From Deltaproteobacteria bacterium GWA2_38_16 (GTDB lineage Bacteria; Bdellovibrionota; JACOXK01; 2-02-FULL-40-11): a stretch of DNA of 64,000 nt. Positions 14,486 through 50,578 of this stretch are shown here, one piece after another. The position numbers and the translations under genes are program-made. Numbering within the stretch: position 1 is the first letter of the stretch; each line of letters opens with the position of its first letter. Location: positions 123,326-187,325 of the forward strand of contig MGPE01000006.1 of NCBI GenBank assembly GCA_001797335.1. Direction: 5' to 3'. The notes under the pieces were generated by a model. That model worked only from the letters and a program-made list of their open reading frames with translations, ran no database searches and was not told where the DNA came from.

Positions 14486-15997
14486 TCATCTATCTAAAAA
14501 GCGAAGCTGGATGGCTTGGGCAATGTGGGGAGTTCTTATATTTTCTTCTCCTTCCATATCGGCCAACGTTCTCGATACTTTTAAAATTCGATGATAGGTC
14601 CGATAGCTCAATCCAAATTTTTCCATCGCTTCATTTAAAATTTTTTCTGCCGAAGATTCTAAGGTACAAAACTCTGCAATAGCCCTAGGAGACATGTGAC
14701 TATTGGTAAAAAAATGACACTCCTTAAATCGAGATCCTTGGATGTTTCTGGCTTTCAACACTCGTTCTAAAATATCTTTCGATGATTCTTCTAGTGATGA
14801 AGACCCCTCTTCTACAGTAACTGCCGGCACCAACACTTGAACATCAATTCTATCCATTAAAGGCCCTGACAGCTTTCCTCGATAGTGCTGGATCCGGGCA
14901 TCACTACAGATACAATCTTTTTTAGGATGATTTAAATACCCACACGGGCAAGGGTTCATCGCTGCTACCAGCATAAATCTAGCCGGATATAAAAATCGTC
15001 CATTGACCCGACATACAGAAATTTTTCCTTCTTCCATGGGTTCCCTTAAGACTTCCAGTACATCTCTTTTAAATTCGGGAATCTCATCTAAAAAAAGTAT
15101 CCCATGATGCGCAAGACTGACTTCCCCAGGCATAATAGAATTTTTTCCACCTCCTACGAGCGCCGCATAAGAAGCCGTGTGATGGGGACTTCGAAAAGGA
15201 CGCTCATAAATAAGTGATTCCTTAGGTTTTAATAACCCAGATACCGAATAGACCTGGGTTGTTTCCAAAGATTCTTTAAAAGTTAAAGGAGGTAAAATCG
15301 ATGGTAAGCGTCTAGCCAACATAGACTTTCCACATCCCGGAGGACCCATCATGAGTACATTGTGTCCTCCCGCCGCAGCAATTTCTAACGCCCGCTTAGC
15401 CCACTTTTGCCCTTTCACCTCAGAAAAATCTATTTCTGACTTCTGTGAGGAAGAAGGCTCAGAAAATTTAACGGGAGTTAAAGATATTTCTTCTTTTAAA
15501 AATTGAATAGCTTCCATCAAACTTTCAATACCATACACATTCATCTGAGAAACAACCGAAGCTTCCAGTGCGTTTTCTTTTGGTAAGAGAACGGTTTTAA
15601 TCCCTTGTTTATAGGCCGAAAGCACTAGCGGCAATACCCCTCGAATAGGCTGGAGCCTCCCTTCCAACGATAGTTCACCTAAAAAAAGATATTCTTTATA
15701 TTTTTGACAATTCCATTGTTGGTCGGCCATAAGAAGTCCTAACGCAATGGCCAATTCAAAAGAAGATCCCTCTTTTTTAAGGTGGGCAGGGGATAAATTC
15801 ACCGTAATTCGTTTCATGGGAAAAGAAACATCACTATTTTTAAATGCCGATCGAACACGCTCTTTACTTTCTTTTACCGACGTATCCGGCAACCCTACTA
15901 CACAAAAAGAGGGGAGCCCAGATTGTAAATCCACCTCTACCCTCACTAAACACGCCTTAAGCCCCACCACACACCCACTCATCACATATGAAAGCAT
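14486..15997 (-). CDS. comM: YifB/ComM family Mg-chelatase-like AAA+ ATPase
   Basis: 503 residues from the ATG at 15997. That start has a perfect AGGAGG six bases upstream and lies just downstream of a sigma-54 promoter; a longer frame opening at 16042 would begin upstream of that promoter and is rejected. Domains: N-terminal ChlI-like domain (VVGLPDTSVKES), Mg-chelatase AAA+ core with Walker A GPPGCGKS (218-225), Walker B LFLDEIPEF, and the C-terminal Mg_chelatase_C domain (SYRTYHRILKVSRTLADM). ComM is a hexameric branch-migration helicase that helps integrate single-stranded DNA during natural transformation. Sigma-54 control of comM is unusual. Confidence 0.93.
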   Translation of the reverse strand: MLSYVMSGCVVGLKACLVRVEVDLQSGLPSFCVVGLPDTSVKESKERVRSAFKNSDVSFPMKRITVNLSPAHLKKEGSSFELAIALGLLMADQQWNCQKYKEYLFLGELSLEGRLQPIRGVLPLVLSAYKQGIKTVLLPKENALEASVVSQMNVYGIESLMEAIQFLKEEISLTPVKFSEPSSSQKSEIDFSEVKGQKWAKRALEIAAAGGHNVLMMGPPGCGKSMLARRLPSILPPLTFKESLETTQVYSVSGLLKPKESLIYERPFRSPHHTASYAALVGGGKNSIMPGEVSLAHHGILFLDEIPEFKRDVLEVLREPMEEGKISVCRVNGRFLYPARFMLVAAMNPCPCGYLNHPKKDCICSDARIQHYRGKLSGPLMDRIDVQVLVPAVTVEEGSSSLEESSKDILERVLKARNIQGSRFKECHFFTNSHMSPRAIAEFCTLESSAEKILNEAMEKFGLSYRTYHRILKVSRTLADMEGEENIRTPHIAQAIQLRFLDR

Positions 15998-16021: not shown

Positions 16022-16037
16022 TGCAAAGCGTGTGCCA
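16022..16037 (-). promoter_or_regulatory. Sigma-54 (-24/-12) promoter for comM
   Basis: Minus strand TGGCACACGCTTTGCA: GG (16036-16035), ten bases, GC (16024-16023). This is a full match to TGGCAC-N5-TTGCA. The expected start is near 16011, leaving a leader of about 14 bases with AGGAGG at 16008-16003. Confidence 0.85.
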
Positions 16038-16059
16038 GGCATTTTGAGCTTGAAATGAG

Positions 16060-16083
16060 AAAAAAGCGGACGGAAAACCGTCC
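16060..16083 (-). terminator. Rho-independent terminator of lgt
   Basis: Directly after the lgt stop (16085-16087), minus strand: six-base-pair stem GGACGG/CCGTCC with a TTTT loop, GC, then six T. It separates lgt transcription from the comM promoter immediately behind it. Confidence 0.85.
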
Positions 16084-16084
16084 A

Positions 16085-16879
16085 CTACGACGGAAGCTTA
16101 CGAGCGCGCCACCAAAGAAGAATTCCTCCCAGGATCATAAAAAGTCCTAAAAACTGAGAGGTAGAAAGAATATTGGAAATAACAAAACCACGGACTTCAT
16201 CCCCTCTAAAAATTTCAATAACACCACGTCCGATAGGATAAAAAATAAGGTACCCCGCTAAAAGTTGGCCATCAAACTTTTTTCGTTTTCTCATCCAAAT
16301 TAAAATTAAAAATACCAAAAAATTAGCGCTAGCTTGCCACAGCTGAGTTGCATAAAGAGGAATACCCAGCGGTCTAGAAAAACTATCGGGATTAGTAGCC
16401 ACATAACTAATGGGAAATTGTACAAAATCACAAATTTTCCCATGACAACATCCCGCTAAAAAACATCCCAATCTTCCAAACATGGTTCCCAATGCCAAAT
16501 AGGGCGCGAAAATATCCATAGATTTTAAGATGGGTATTTTGTGCTTTTTTGTATACCACCAAAGCACAATAGCAGCGGGAATAAACCCTCCTAAAAAGGT
16601 ATATCCCCCCTTCCATACTTTTGGAATTTCAAGAGGATTAGAAAAATAATAAGAAGGCTTTTCAAAAAATACATGAAAAAGACGAGATCCAATAAGGGCC
16701 GCTAAAATAATATAGGTCGCTACATTTAAAAAATGTTCAGGATCTAACCCCTCTGTTTTAGCTCGTCTGACGACTAAATATAACGCTAGGCTAAAACCAA
16801 TAGCTAACATCGTCCCATATCCGGGAATAGGGATATAAGAATCTGCTCCGAACGGAATCTTTAGTAAAATCGGATACAT
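16085..16879 (-). CDS. lgt: Prolipoprotein diacylglyceryl transferase
   Basis: 264 residues, about seven membrane helices. Lgt moves a diacylglyceryl group from phosphatidylglycerol to the lipobox cysteine of prolipoproteins in the inner membrane, the first step for the many lipoproteins in this window. Visible marks: the N-terminal GYGTMLAIGF segment, GGYTFLGGF, and GRLGCFLAGCCHG, a cysteine-containing variant of the usual GRLGNFxNxE signature, then YPIGRGVIEIFRGDE. Length is normal. A strong terminator follows the stop. Confidence 0.95.
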   Translation of the reverse strand: MYPILLKIPFGADSYIPIPGYGTMLAIGFSLALYLVVRRAKTEGLDPEHFLNVATYIILAALIGSRLFHVFFEKPSYYFSNPLEIPKVWKGGYTFLGGFIPAAIVLWWYTKKHKIPILKSMDIFAPYLALGTMFGRLGCFLAGCCHGKICDFVQFPISYVATNPDSFSRPLGIPLYATQLWQASANFLVFLILIWMRKRKKFDGQLLAGYLIFYPIGRGVIEIFRGDEVRGFVISNILSTSQFLGLFMILGGILLWWRARKLPS

Positions 16880-38227: not shown

Positions 38228-38917
38228 TCAAAACAAAAAGAATTCTTGAGCCTGATTTTTAAGGGTTTGAAGAGAGCGCTGGAGATCTCCATCAAATTCT
38301 ATAGGCTCACCACAAATAATTACCGCTTTTGAAAAAGGGATAGGAAACCACATATGATCCCAGCTTTTATGAAACACAAATTTATGTTTGGCGTTACAGG
38401 CAACTGGAATAATGGAATAATGCCCTTTATGAGCAATATAGGTCACTCCTGGTTTTACTTCATGACGCGGTCCTTTGGGACCATCCACAGCAAAGGCCAA
38501 ATCTCTCCCTCGCATTGCATTTAAAATTTGCTCTAACGTTTCTGGCCCAAAATGACGCGTAGAACCTCTCACCATTTTAATCCCAAGGAGAGTTAAAAGA
38601 CGTGCAATGAGTTCCCCATCTTTACTTCGGCTGGCCATGCTCACAAAACCTCTGAATGCATACCGCAGGGCAAGAATGGGAATGTCTTCATGCCAATGAG
38701 CATAAATATAGGATTTTTTGCGATCTCTTTTAAAGTGCTTTAATCCTTCAGGTGTTTGCTGAAGAAGTTGAATGCGAATGGTCAGCATGTATGGATATAA
38801 AACCAGGGCAAGAACAAGAGGAAAAATCCATCTCCAAAAAAAATTTTTAAGAAACTGCATGATATTTAAAGTTATTTTCTTATATCTTAATAAAATACAT
38901 CTTGCAATTTGAGACAT
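38228..38917 (-). CDS. Lysophospholipid acyltransferase family protein (DUF374-like)
   Basis: 229 residues, or 210 if the ATG at 38860 is used (MQFLKNFFW...). One N-terminal membrane helix (about 25-50). The core has the acyltransferase pattern: AHWHEDIPIL (His/Asp-containing substitute for the HxxxxD motif), SRSKDGELIARLL, RGSTRHFGPETL, AFAVDGPKGPRHEVKPGV and IIPVACNA, typical of DUF374/KDO-lipid-type acyltransferases acting on lipid A precursors or phospholipids at the inner membrane. GGAGG abuts the first ATG without a spacer, so the start is uncertain. Confidence 0.85.
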   Translation of the reverse strand: MSQIARCILLRYKKITLNIMQFLKNFFWRWIFPLVLALVLYPYMLTIRIQLLQQTPEGLKHFKRDRKKSYIYAHWHEDIPILALRYAFRGFVSMASRSKDGELIARLLTLLGIKMVRGSTRHFGPETLEQILNAMRGRDLAFAVDGPKGPRHEVKPGVTYIAHKGHYSIIPVACNAKHKFVFHKSWDHMWFPIPFSKAVIICGEPIEFDGDLQRSLQTLKNQAQEFFLF

Positions 38918-38958
38918 CCTCCATTAAGTTTACGCCACTCTTTAAGGAGGTTTCTGGA

Positions 38959-40533
38959 TTGAGTAACAAAGATTTAATCACCTCTCATCTCACGATGGTG
39001 AACGAGGTCGGGCGAAAAATCCTCACCACCCCAAACATTGAAACTCTTTACACCGAAATCACCAACATCCTTCAACAAACCTTTAATTTTCATCACCTCT
39101 CTCTTTGGATTTATGATGTTAAAACGCAAGAAGCTATTTTAAAAGCCAAATCTGGTGTTGCCCCCTATCAAGATGAAATTGGCCAAAGACGATCTATGGA
39201 TATTGGCATTATTGGATGGTGTTTAAAAAGTGGAAAAACCATTTTGGCCAATGATGTTACTCAAGATCCTCACTACTATCACTACCCTGGTCTTCAAACA
39301 AAGTCAGAACTCTGTGCACGCATTAAAATTTATGACCAAGTCATTGGAGCGCTAAATGTGGAAAGTGATAAATTGAATGCTTTTGAGGAAAGCGATGTCA
39401 CCGTTTTAGAAACAACGGCTGATCTTTGTGCCTTAGCAATTTATCTTACCAATTTTAATAAAGAACTTGAGCATCAGGTTGAAGAAAAAACGGCTGAGCT
39501 TAGAGCTGCAAATGAAAAAATTATGCAGCAACAACAACTTTTAAAACATGAAAATAAATCTTTAAAATCTTTTATTGATCAAAAAATTCCTTCTTTAAAA
39601 ATCATTGGCTCTTCTAAGCCTTTAATGCAGCTTTTAAGTATGGTCGATAAAATTGCACCCACACAAGCCACCGTTTTAATCCAGGGAGAAAGTGGAACGG
39701 GGAAAGAACTCATTGCCCACCGCCTTCATGATATGAGCGATCGAAAAAATGCTCCCTATGTCACTATTAATTGCGGTGCCCTTCATGAAAATCTTTTAAA
39801 AAGTGAACTTTTTGGACACGAAAAAGGCTCTTTTACCGGCGCTCACGCATTAAAAATTGGCCTTGTAGAAACCGCCCATGGAGGTACGCTCTTTTTAGAT
39901 GAAATTGGAGAAATGGGAAAAGAAATGCAGGCTAAACTGCTTCGGTTTTTACAAGAGGGGGAATTTTATCGCATTGGTGGAAAAAAACCTTTAAAGGTCA
40001 ATGTCCGCGTCTTGTCTGCGACCAACAAGGATTTAGAAACAGAGGTTAAGGAAGGTCGTTTTAGAGAAGACCTTTATTATCGCTTGAATACCATTACCCT
40101 TCGAGTTCCTCCGCTTCGAAAACGCTTGGATGACATTGATCATCTTGTTGACCATTTCTTAAAATCAGATTTATGGGGAGAATCTAAAGTTAAAAAAATA
40201 TCATCAGAAGCACAAGAACTTTTAAAACAATATGACTGGCCAGGCAATATTCGAGAACTTCAAAATGTGCTTGAACGACTTAAAATTTTATCAGATGGCG
40301 ACACAATTACGGTAGAAGATATGGCAACCCACATTAAATTTTCGAATAAAGCCGCTGTTGAAACTTCTGATTATCTTTCTGTTACCGCTTTATACGAGCT
40401 TGAAAAATCTCATATTTTAAAGACTCTTGAATATTTCCAGGGAAATAAAACCAAGGCCGCCAACGCCCTAGGAATTACCATTAAAACGCTTTACAATAAA
40501 CTCAGCCGTTACGATAACGTTGTTACTCATTAA
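38959..40533 (+). CDS. Sigma-54-dependent activator with GAF sensor (GAF-AAA+-Fis)
   Basis: 524 residues from the TTG at 38959, preceded by AAGGAGG with an eight-base spacer; the frame opens further upstream but would overlap the divergent gene. GAF domain about 20-165, coiled linker about 170-205, AAA+ domain: Walker A GESGTGKE (243-250), GSFTGA (290-295, variant of GAFTGA, which contacts sigma-54), Walker B GGTLFLDEIGEM (308-319), and a Fis-type helix-turn-helix at the C-terminus (NKTKAANALGITIKTLYNKL). It has no receiver domain, so it is controlled through the GAF ligand. It is the natural candidate to activate some of the six sigma-54 elements in this window. Confidence 0.95.
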   Translation: MSNKDLITSHLTMVNEVGRKILTTPNIETLYTEITNILQQTFNFHHLSLWIYDVKTQEAILKAKSGVAPYQDEIGQRRSMDIGIIGWCLKSGKTILANDVTQDPHYYHYPGLQTKSELCARIKIYDQVIGALNVESDKLNAFEESDVTVLETTADLCALAIYLTNFNKELEHQVEEKTAELRAANEKIMQQQQLLKHENKSLKSFIDQKIPSLKIIGSSKPLMQLLSMVDKIAPTQATVLIQGESGTGKELIAHRLHDMSDRKNAPYVTINCGALHENLLKSELFGHEKGSFTGAHALKIGLVETAHGGTLFLDEIGEMGKEMQAKLLRFLQEGEFYRIGGKKPLKVNVRVLSATNKDLETEVKEGRFREDLYYRLNTITLRVPPLRKRLDDIDHLVDHFLKSDLWGESKVKKISSEAQELLKQYDWPGNIRELQNVLERLKILSDGDTITVEDMATHIKFSNKAAVETSDYLSVTALYELEKSHILKTLEYFQGNKTKAANALGITIKTLYNKLSRYDNVVTH

Positions 40534-48697: not shown

Positions 48698-49942
48698 ATG
48701 GATCTTTTTTCTCAACATCTCTCTCATCATCATACTCCTTCGACTCCTTTGGCTGAACGATTACGCCCAAAAACTTTAGATGAATTTGTAGGACAAACTC
48801 ATCTTTTGGGAGATAAAAAAATATTACGAAATCTTTTTCAAAGTAAGACCCTTTTTCCCATGATTTTATGGGGCCCTCCCGGCAGTGGGAAAACTACCCT
48901 AGCCAATCTTTTGGCCAGAGAAACTGCTTCTGAATTTATTGCCATCTCTGCTGTCACGGCCAATGTGAAAGACTTAAAAGAAATTATGCAAGCAGCCCAA
49001 GAACGGCTGAAACTTTATCGAAAAAAAACCATCCTTTTTATTGATGAAATTCATCGCTTCAATAAAGCTCAGCAAGATTATCTACTCCCTTTTGTAGAAC
49101 AAGGGACCGTCATTCTTATTGGTGCCACGACTGAAAATCCTTCTTTTGAGATAAATGCACCTTTACTTTCACGTACAAAAGTCATTGTCTTAAAACGTCT
49201 TGAACCCCAAGATTTAACCGCCATCATTGAAAGAGCCCTTAAGGTATTAGGCACCACAATGGACCCCTTGGCTCTTCAATTTTTGGCCGATAGCGCCAAT
49301 GGCGATGCCCGAAGTGCTTTGAATACAGTAGCCGTTTCTCATCACCTTTCCAAAGAAGCCCATGAATCTACCATTTCTCTTTCAATTGTAGAAGAAGCTC
49401 TTCAAAAGAAAAATCTCTACTACGATAAAAAAGCAGAAGAACATTACAATATTATTTCTGCTTTTCATAAAAGTATGCGTGGATCTGATCCCGATGCCGC
49501 CATTTATTGGCTTTGTCGCATGATTGAAGCCGGGGAAGATCCTCTTTTTATTGCAAGACGCATGGTTGTTTTTGCTTCTGAAGATGTTGGAAATGCAGAT
49601 CCTCATGCCCTCCCTTTAGCGGTTGCAACGATGCAAGCCGTTGACTTCATTGGAATGCCCGAAGCTAAAATTCCTCTCGCCCAAGCGGCCACGTATTTAG
49701 CCACCGCTCCTAAAAGTAATGCTTCTTATGCAGCCCTGCTCAAAGCTACAGAGGATATCAAAGCCACGGGAAATTTGGATGTTCCTCTCTATTTAAGAAA
49801 TGCCCCTACAAAACTCATGAAAGAATTAGGCTACAGCAAAGGATATCAGTACGCCCATGACCAAAAAGATAAAAAAGTTACCCATCCCCACCTCCCCGAA
49901 AAACTTCAGGGAAAAAAATACTACCTCCCTCCTCAAAAATAG
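48698..49942 (+). CDS. rarA: Replication-associated recombination protein A (MgsA/RarA) AAA+ ATPase
   Basis: 414 residues. PLAERLRPKTLDEFVGQ at the start, Walker A GPPGSGKTT (59-67), Walker B ILFIDEIHRF, sensor region GATTENPSFE, and the C-terminal tetramer domain (FHKSMRGSDPDAAIYWLCRM, NADPHALPLAVA). RarA acts at stalled forks and gaps. A strong hairpin terminator follows. Confidence 0.96.
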   Translation: MDLFSQHLSHHHTPSTPLAERLRPKTLDEFVGQTHLLGDKKILRNLFQSKTLFPMILWGPPGSGKTTLANLLARETASEFIAISAVTANVKDLKEIMQAAQERLKLYRKKTILFIDEIHRFNKAQQDYLLPFVEQGTVILIGATTENPSFEINAPLLSRTKVIVLKRLEPQDLTAIIERALKVLGTTMDPLALQFLADSANGDARSALNTVAVSHHLSKEAHESTISLSIVEEALQKKNLYYDKKAEEHYNIISAFHKSMRGSDPDAAIYWLCRMIEAGEDPLFIARRMVVFASEDVGNADPHALPLAVATMQAVDFIGMPEAKIPLAQAATYLATAPKSNASYAALLKATEDIKATGNLDVPLYLRNAPTKLMKELGYSKGYQYAHDQKDKKVTHPHLPEKLQGKKYYLPPQK

Positions 49943-49960
49943 CTTAGATATTAATCATAT

Positions 49961-49986
49961 CGGACGGTTTTCCGTCCGCGTTTTTT
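49961..49986 (+). terminator. Rho-independent terminator of rarA
   Basis: CGGACGG-TTTT-CCGTCCG stem-loop (49961-49978) followed by CG and six T (49981-49986), 19 bases after the rarA stop. Same hairpin as behind lgt. Confidence 0.88.
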
Positions 49987-50007
49987 GACATTTGAGCTCA
50001 AAACCCC

Positions 50008-50023
50008 TGGCACATGCTTTGCA
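50008..50023 (+). promoter_or_regulatory. Sigma-54 (-24/-12) promoter for the coiled-coil gene
   Basis: TGGCACATGCTTTGCA: GG (50009-50010), ten bases, GC (50021-50022). Full match to TGGCAC-N5-TTGCA. Start expected near 50034; AAGGAG precedes ATG at 50081. Confidence 0.85.
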
Positions 50024-50080
50024 TATAAATAATCCCTAGACAGAAACACTTAAATTCTTATATTTTAACAAGGAGAAAAT

Positions 50081-50578
50081 ATGACACTGACAAAACAAGA
50101 CTTAACAGAAGCACTTCAAGTAACAAAAAAAGACTTAACTGCTGCACTTCAAGAAACAAAAGAAGGCTTTACTGAGGCCCTGCAAGCAACAAAAAAAGAC
50201 TTAACTGAGGCGCTTCTAGAAACTAAAAAAGATTTGCTTCTAGAAACAAGAAAAGATCTAACAAAAGCACTTCAAAAAACTAAAAAAGAGATTTTGGAGG
50301 CGGTGGATCAAAAGCTCACTGCCCAAGAAAAGCATTTTGATGAAAAATTAGATCAACGATTCACTGATCAAAAACAATACTTAGATGATAAACTGGACCA
50401 AAAAGTAGATTCCCTAAAAGTACTCATTGAAGATATTCGAGATGACATTCAACTTTTAGTCGAAGGCAGAGATCCCATTATCAAAAAACAAGATCAGCAC
50501 GAACAAAAAATCATTCATCACGAAACCAGACTCACAACTTTAGAAGATTATACCTATACTAAAGATCGATTAAAATAA
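50081..50578 (+). CDS. Hendecad-repeat coiled-coil protein under sigma-54 control
   Basis: 165 residues, no signal peptide. Residues 5-85 consist of 11-residue units of the type KKDLTEALQET (at least five full units, one shortened to eight residues), which form a right-handed or straight coiled coil; the underlying DNA is a 33-base tandem repeat from about 50093. Residues 86-165 continue as a left-handed-type coil (KLDQRFTDQKQYLDDKLDQKV in parts). A cytoplasmic rod-like scaffold or DNA/surface-associated filament is possible. Function unknown. Confidence 0.75.
   Translation: MTLTKQDLTEALQVTKKDLTAALQETKEGFTEALQATKKDLTEALLETKKDLLLETRKDLTKALQKTKKEILEAVDQKLTAQEKHFDEKLDQRFTDQKQYLDDKLDQKVDSLKVLIEDIRDDIQLLVEGRDPIIKKQDQHEQKIIHHETRLTTLEDYTYTKDRLK

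Follow-up and report, generated by a model that had tools for sequence, protein, structure and literature searches.

The window, as the whole analysed stretch of 64,000 nt is called here, carries two copies of a module of roughly 65 bases, at 49961-50026 on the plus strand and at 16083-16018 on the minus strand, both exactly where a preliminary description had placed them. The plus-strand copy lies between rarA (48698..49942, plus) and a gene for a coiled-coil protein of 165 aa (50081..50578, plus), the predicted regulated gene. Its anatomy can be read directly in the sequence. A palindrome, GGACGGTTTTCCGTCC (49962..49977), referred to below as UAS for its putative role as an enhancer, is followed by a T-rich spacer (49978..49990), by a dyad, TTTGAGCTCAAA (49991..50002), centred 11 bp upstream of TGGCAC and regarded as a putative accessory site, and by a sigma-54 -24/-12 promoter, TGGCACATGCTTTGCA (50008..50023). 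In the minus-strand copy, the same palindrome GGACGGTTTTCCGTCC (16068..16083) abuts the stop codon of lgt (16085..16879, minus) and is followed by an imperfect dyad with two mismatches in one half, TTCAAGCTCAAA (16043..16054), and by the sigma-54 promoter TGGCACACGCTTTGCA (16022..16037) of comM (14486..15997, minus), which encodes a Mg-chelatase-like competence helicase, is the second predicted regulated gene and has orthologues likewise preceded by sigma-54 promoters. The flanking genes are those named previously, with the correction that comM likely starts at the ATG at 15997; the longer comM ORF, starting at 16042, runs through the sigma-54 promoter. In both copies the start of the palindrome is 46 bp from TGGCAC, and these are the sole palindrome sites in the window (two found, 0.37 expected).

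A whole-genome search (2.0 Mb, 19 contigs) with a 68-base query returned 11 full-length copies with E-values of 1.3e-29 to 9e-16, the window pair and nine more, followed just by fragments with E of at least 0.03. Repetition of the module by chance is excluded. The copies were 79-98% identical across the module in unrelated contexts, and the T-rich spacer, alike in these copies, differs in the sister genus. Homology between copies ends at the module edges unless the genes behind them are also related. One decayed copy (G000:C6:41809-41849; L014, L085:7810-7850) precedes another two-gene cassette of the MGKYATHYTD type; here AAACGGTTTTCAGTC is joined straight to ACCCCTGGCAC, about 30 bp of the interval between UAS and promoter having been lost in a natural deletion.

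Behind the 11 copies lie the coiled-coil gene and comM of the window, a Tad operon with genes for CpaC, an FHA-CpaF ATPase and a sigma-54 activator (bEBP) with an FHA domain, a second Tad locus starting with a Flp-like pilin gene, a DUF4258/MqsR-like gene paired with an MqsA-like gene, a gene for a RelE/HigB-like toxin together with one for an HTH antitoxin, and two types of two-gene cassette, MGKYATHYTDEEL (three copies) and SKRTLEWRD (two copies). Neither cassette type gave a convincing match in Pfam, NCBIfam or PADLOC. A UAS without the dyad was found 87 bp from TGGCAC ahead of an operon of a coiled-coil gene, a pgpA-like gene, cinA and recA, at 87 bp ahead of another coiled-coil gene, at 66 bp ahead of a third SKRTLEWRD cassette, at 76 bp ahead of an mqsA-like gene with a weak -12 element, at 77 bp (with two changes in the UAS) ahead of an addiction-module antidote gene, and also inside the second Tad locus. 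At comEC, the UAS lies 118 bp downstream of the promoter, within the gene. dprA has no UAS/sigma-54 promoter, so that not every competence gene is included.

Each of the two cassette types is a family of small gene pairs, overlapping or adjacent, in a toxin-antitoxin-like arrangement. They were located at L079, L080, L087, L085, L081 and L084 in the own genome, at C46 and C52 in G001 and at C55 and C58 in G007. Within family f1, every SKRTLEWRD copy found stands behind a UAS; the two in G007 do not.

The sigma-54 promoter proposed earlier, TGGCAC-N5-TTGCA, was borne out. TGGCAC-N5-TTGCAT occurs at 14 sites in the genome and the reversed pattern at none, all 11 module copies have the promoter (one as TGGTAC), matching TGGCAC-N5-TTGC(A/T) with the invariant GG and GC, and the genome encodes rpoN and eight clear bEBP genes. 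The palindrome is tied to promoters of this type: each of the 15 exact palindromes (GGACGG-N4-CCGNCC) has a sigma-54-like site no more than 120 bp away, the weaker sites having been surveyed in part of the genome, from chosen stretches. The distances are 46 bp (the 11 copies), 66, 76 and 87 bp, plus the 118 bp downstream of the comEC promoter. When the palindrome was searched for by itself, it was also found ahead of sigma-54 promoters with neither dyad nor T-tract, so that an inverted repeat is linked to these promoters at variable distance.

For comparison, UAS sites were counted in related genomes against a reversed control. The excess was clear in the own genome (14 forward hits against 1), in G001 of the sister genus (12 sites against none) and in G003 (4 against none). 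In G004 and G005 (4 against 2 strand hits each) the numbers are too small to be informative on their own, yet they lie at the same genes. A clear excess was confined to family f1. In the relatives the UAS is mostly GGACGGAAATCCGACC, with a mismatched stem. Its association with particular genes is conserved: in the sister genus, comM, flp, cpaC, comEC, mqsRA and SKRTLEWRD cassettes also have a UAS and a sigma-54 promoter. The comM UAS is at 78 bp in G001, G004 and G005 and at 79 bp in G002, a third genus (with one UAS change, and TGGCCC in the promoter); the flp UAS is at 66 bp in G001 and G005 and is interrupted by the contig end in G004; the cpaC UAS is at 47 bp, with the dyad, in G001 and G004. 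The comEC UAS of G001 again lies within the gene, 164 bp downstream of the promoter. Further spacings in relatives are 77 bp (mqsRA), 67 and 47 bp (SKRTLEWRD cassettes), 47, 57, 57 and 66 bp (coiled-coil genes) and 78 bp (ORF6N-like genes of G003). Because the relatives retain the UAS at orthologous genes despite its mismatched stem, selection appears to keep the palindrome and not a hairpin with T-tract.

The distances between UAS and promoter are quantised in helix turns, at 46/47, 57, 66/67, 75-79 and 87 bp. Among 21 non-redundant promoters, phase concentration was R = 0.86 at a period of 10.2 bp (p ~2e-5 against uniform spacing), and a stricter set of 13 promoters shared the helical phase with p ~4e-5, both p-values being optimistic because some promoters are related by descent. 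The spacing clusters are found in more than one gene class and in more than one genus. When an activator acts through a short DNA loop, dependence on the face of the helix is expected. A short loop would force the enhancer onto one helix face, which would account for the 10-bp steps. Enhancers of the sigma-54-dependent qrr genes of Vibrio tolerate insertions and deletions of 10-11 bp, the helical repeat (PMC4740811).

In every dyad promoter, TTTGAGCTCAAA or a near copy is centred 11 bp (once 12 bp) upstream of TGGCA, at UAS distances of 46/47 and of 57 bp alike. In promoters with the UAS at 66 bp, and in most of those at 75-77 bp, its place is taken by AATAAAA(T/A)CAA, which ends 10 bp upstream of TGGCA and usually contains the WATCAA half of an IHF site, with the TTR part absent. 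Since both occupy one fixed position, the dyad and AATAAAA(T/A)CAA look like alternative accessory sites; the dyad is a probable site for an accessory or DNA-bending protein. At cpaC the dyad is kept across two genera and the adjacent spacers differ. Conservation of the module as a whole, as first proposed, therefore holds in part: copies of palindrome and promoter lacking the dyad are common, which makes the dyad, first suggested to be an operator, an optional sub-element.

From its linkage to sigma-54 promoters and its phased spacing, the palindrome GGACGG-N4-CCGTCC is very probably the enhancer of a sigma-54 activator. A bEBP dimer would bind it and, across a very short loop, touch sigma-54 RNA polymerase at TGGCAC-N5-TTGCA, with the enhancer confined to one helix face. 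The module as a whole is most likely a compact sigma-54 promoter with its own enhancer, activated by a bEBP, likely the FHA-bEBP, and co-expressing DNA-uptake, Tad and cassette genes. Promoters controlled by NtrC, NifA or, at qrr, LuxO likewise have a palindromic enhancer upstream of a -24/-12 promoter. The present ones differ in the fixed dyad or AATAAAA(T/A)CAA 10-11 bp upstream of TGGCA and, at comEC, in a UAS downstream and inside the gene. We know of no bEBP enhancer with this UAS sequence. The UAS also starts only 46-87 bp from TGGCA, nearer than the usual 100-150 bp (PMC7057263), which counts against the enhancer reading. If that reading is true, the promoters form a natural series of enhancers phased at steps of about 10 bp, in which either of two accessory elements occupies the same fixed place.

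As regulator of the UAS set, the FHA-bEBP is the probable candidate, an assignment made from linkage and distribution in a genome that encodes seven other bEBPs. It has 430 aa, with an FHA domain, an AAA+ domain with GAFTGA and a Fis-type HTH, and is encoded by the third gene of the cpaC operon; no other of the eight clear bEBP genes was found in an operon that follows the module. The closest orthologues of the protein occur in G004 (66%; HTH IPKSTLMDKIKRY against IPKSTLLDKIKRY) and G003 (53%; HTH not readable). The HTH of the own genome matches that of G004 and is unlike that of the sister family, where the UAS is absent. No orthologue was found in G001 and G005, both incomplete genomes. G002, where UAS sites are few and a clear orthologue is missing, still has a UAS-like site at comM. 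With its own operon behind a module promoter, the FHA-bEBP would be part of a positive feedback loop. A gene for a Ser/Thr protein kinase with a PEGA domain (L076:16762-18027) lies beside the second Tad locus; because FHA domains bind phosphothreonine, the kinase might act as an input to the pair of FHA proteins encoded in the cpaC operon, or as their partner.

The functional theme of the set suggests DNA uptake: comEC, comM and cinA-recA are combined with Tad-pilus genes, and a role in competence is on balance the better reading. Under it, comEC, comM, cinA-recA and the two Tad-pilus loci would be expressed jointly, together with a variable complement of toxin-antitoxin, two-gene and coiled-coil genes. 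It is rather unlikely that a real enhancer serves another bEBP, such as the GAF-domain activator encoded in the window (38902..40533, plus), and that the regulon is chiefly one for the Tad pilus or for stress, not for competence. The eight clear bEBP genes, the UAS-like comM site of G002 in a genome with no clear FHA-bEBP orthologue and the position of dprA outside the set agree with this alternative; against it, the own genome has no module promoter linked to the GAF-bEBP gene but has one ahead of the cpaC operon, which includes the FHA-bEBP gene, and comEC, comM and cinA-recA together indicate DNA uptake.

In the competence regulons of ComK, SigX/ComX, Sxy-CRP and TfoX-QstR, one regulator induces genes for uptake and recombination, with cinA-recA and comM often among them; the control proposed here differs in its sigma-54/bEBP logic. 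In Liberibacter crescens, the Tad pilus is reported to be essential for DNA uptake and cooperates with ComEC in natural transformation, in a paper that mentions neither sigma54 nor RpoN (PMC8513845), whereas here Tad and comEC genes appear joined in one sigma-54 regulon. In commensal Neisseria, RpoN, IHF and Npa are reported to control pilE (PMC6528607). PilR/Npa control of type IV pilins shares with the present case a pilin gene, for a type IV filament of a DNA-uptake kind, under sigma-54 and an activator; here a Tad pilus together with comEC, comM, cinA-recA and toxin-antitoxin genes would be controlled, and the candidate activator has an FHA domain in place of a response-regulator receiver. 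No sigma-54 competence regulon of this kind was found in the open-licence PubMed Central papers searched, which is weak evidence of novelty. If the reading is true, the sigma-54-controlled regulon for competence and the Tad pilus belongs to a lineage known from uncultured genomes alone, and its regulator, the FHA-bEBP, is testable, with the Ser/Thr kinase encoded next to the second Tad locus as a possible input.

The compact form of the promoter seems to have spread within this lineage. In relatives, comM (three sister-genus genomes) and flp (two) have UAS-sigma54 promoters of other spacing with no dyad, and comM of the third genus is likewise non-compact; in the own genome both genes have the compact module. 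G001 lacks the coiled-coil gene and its module at rarA, which is followed immediately by the next gene; this genome has coiled-coil genes with UAS promoters of their own at other places. The simplest reading is that the compact module replaced older promoters of the same regulon. The architecture would thus have spread through the genome, displacing those promoters. The mobile insulated promoter unit suggested in the preliminary description stands as far as a compact unit has been multiplied; no hallmark of a mobile element was seen in the loci compared. That the 65-bp block, alone or with its gene, inserts as a mobile cassette is improbable. Unrelated loci do have just the block in common, comM and flp differ from their orthologues in relatives in the type of UAS-sigma54 promoter, and the coiled-coil cassette after rarA is missing from G001; against insertion, terminal repeats, a target duplication and a shared 3' end or recombination site were not seen in the compared cassettes, homology stops at the module edges or within genes, and ordinary recombination or gene conversion between promoters would suffice. 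Integron-like cassettes were rejected for the absence of the shared 3' end, and so was a phage origin: viral contigs yielded nothing for the dyad-promoter motif and one match for the palindrome, behind which no promoter of this type lies. More tentatively, and with some doubt on our part, the toxin-antitoxin pairs, two-gene families and coiled-coil genes might be incoming accessory cassettes furnished with the competence promoter and expressed only during DNA uptake, within a sigma-54/FHA-bEBP competence programme.

The composite first proposed, an intrinsic terminator of the upstream gene fused to a sigma-54 promoter for the next, is very improbable: in the own genome the 6-bp stem has no mismatch and leads into 5-6 T (-11.3 kcal/mol), and upstream genes run into the module in 6 of 11 copies, but the upstream gene is divergent in the other 5, the site lies within the comEC coding sequence in two genera, and the relatives have mismatched stems (-4.9 to -7.3 against about -11 kcal/mol; at cpaC, -4.9 against -11.3 kcal/mol), often with no T-run, while half-sites and phase are kept. 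A GC-rich stem with T-run is thus not conserved at gene ends. The palindrome may incidentally terminate lgt and rarA.

In the sister family (f2), comM (L248, L249; G006, G007) has a sigma-54-like promoter with different upstream DNA and no GGACGG UAS, which suggests that comM came under sigma-54 control before this UAS arose. TGGCAC-N5-TTGCAT sites with no UAS nearby were noted at L018, L019, L023 and L031 (position 1501); UAS-less sigma-54-like promoters precede genes for a sensor kinase and secreted proteins and presumably respond to other activators. Two coiled-coil genes are built of short tandem repeats, at L083:8721-9260 (FATKDDLKN) and at L078:6829-7317 (KEDVKVL). The latter heads the pgpA-cinA-recA operon, and both repeat genes contain a long open antisense frame.
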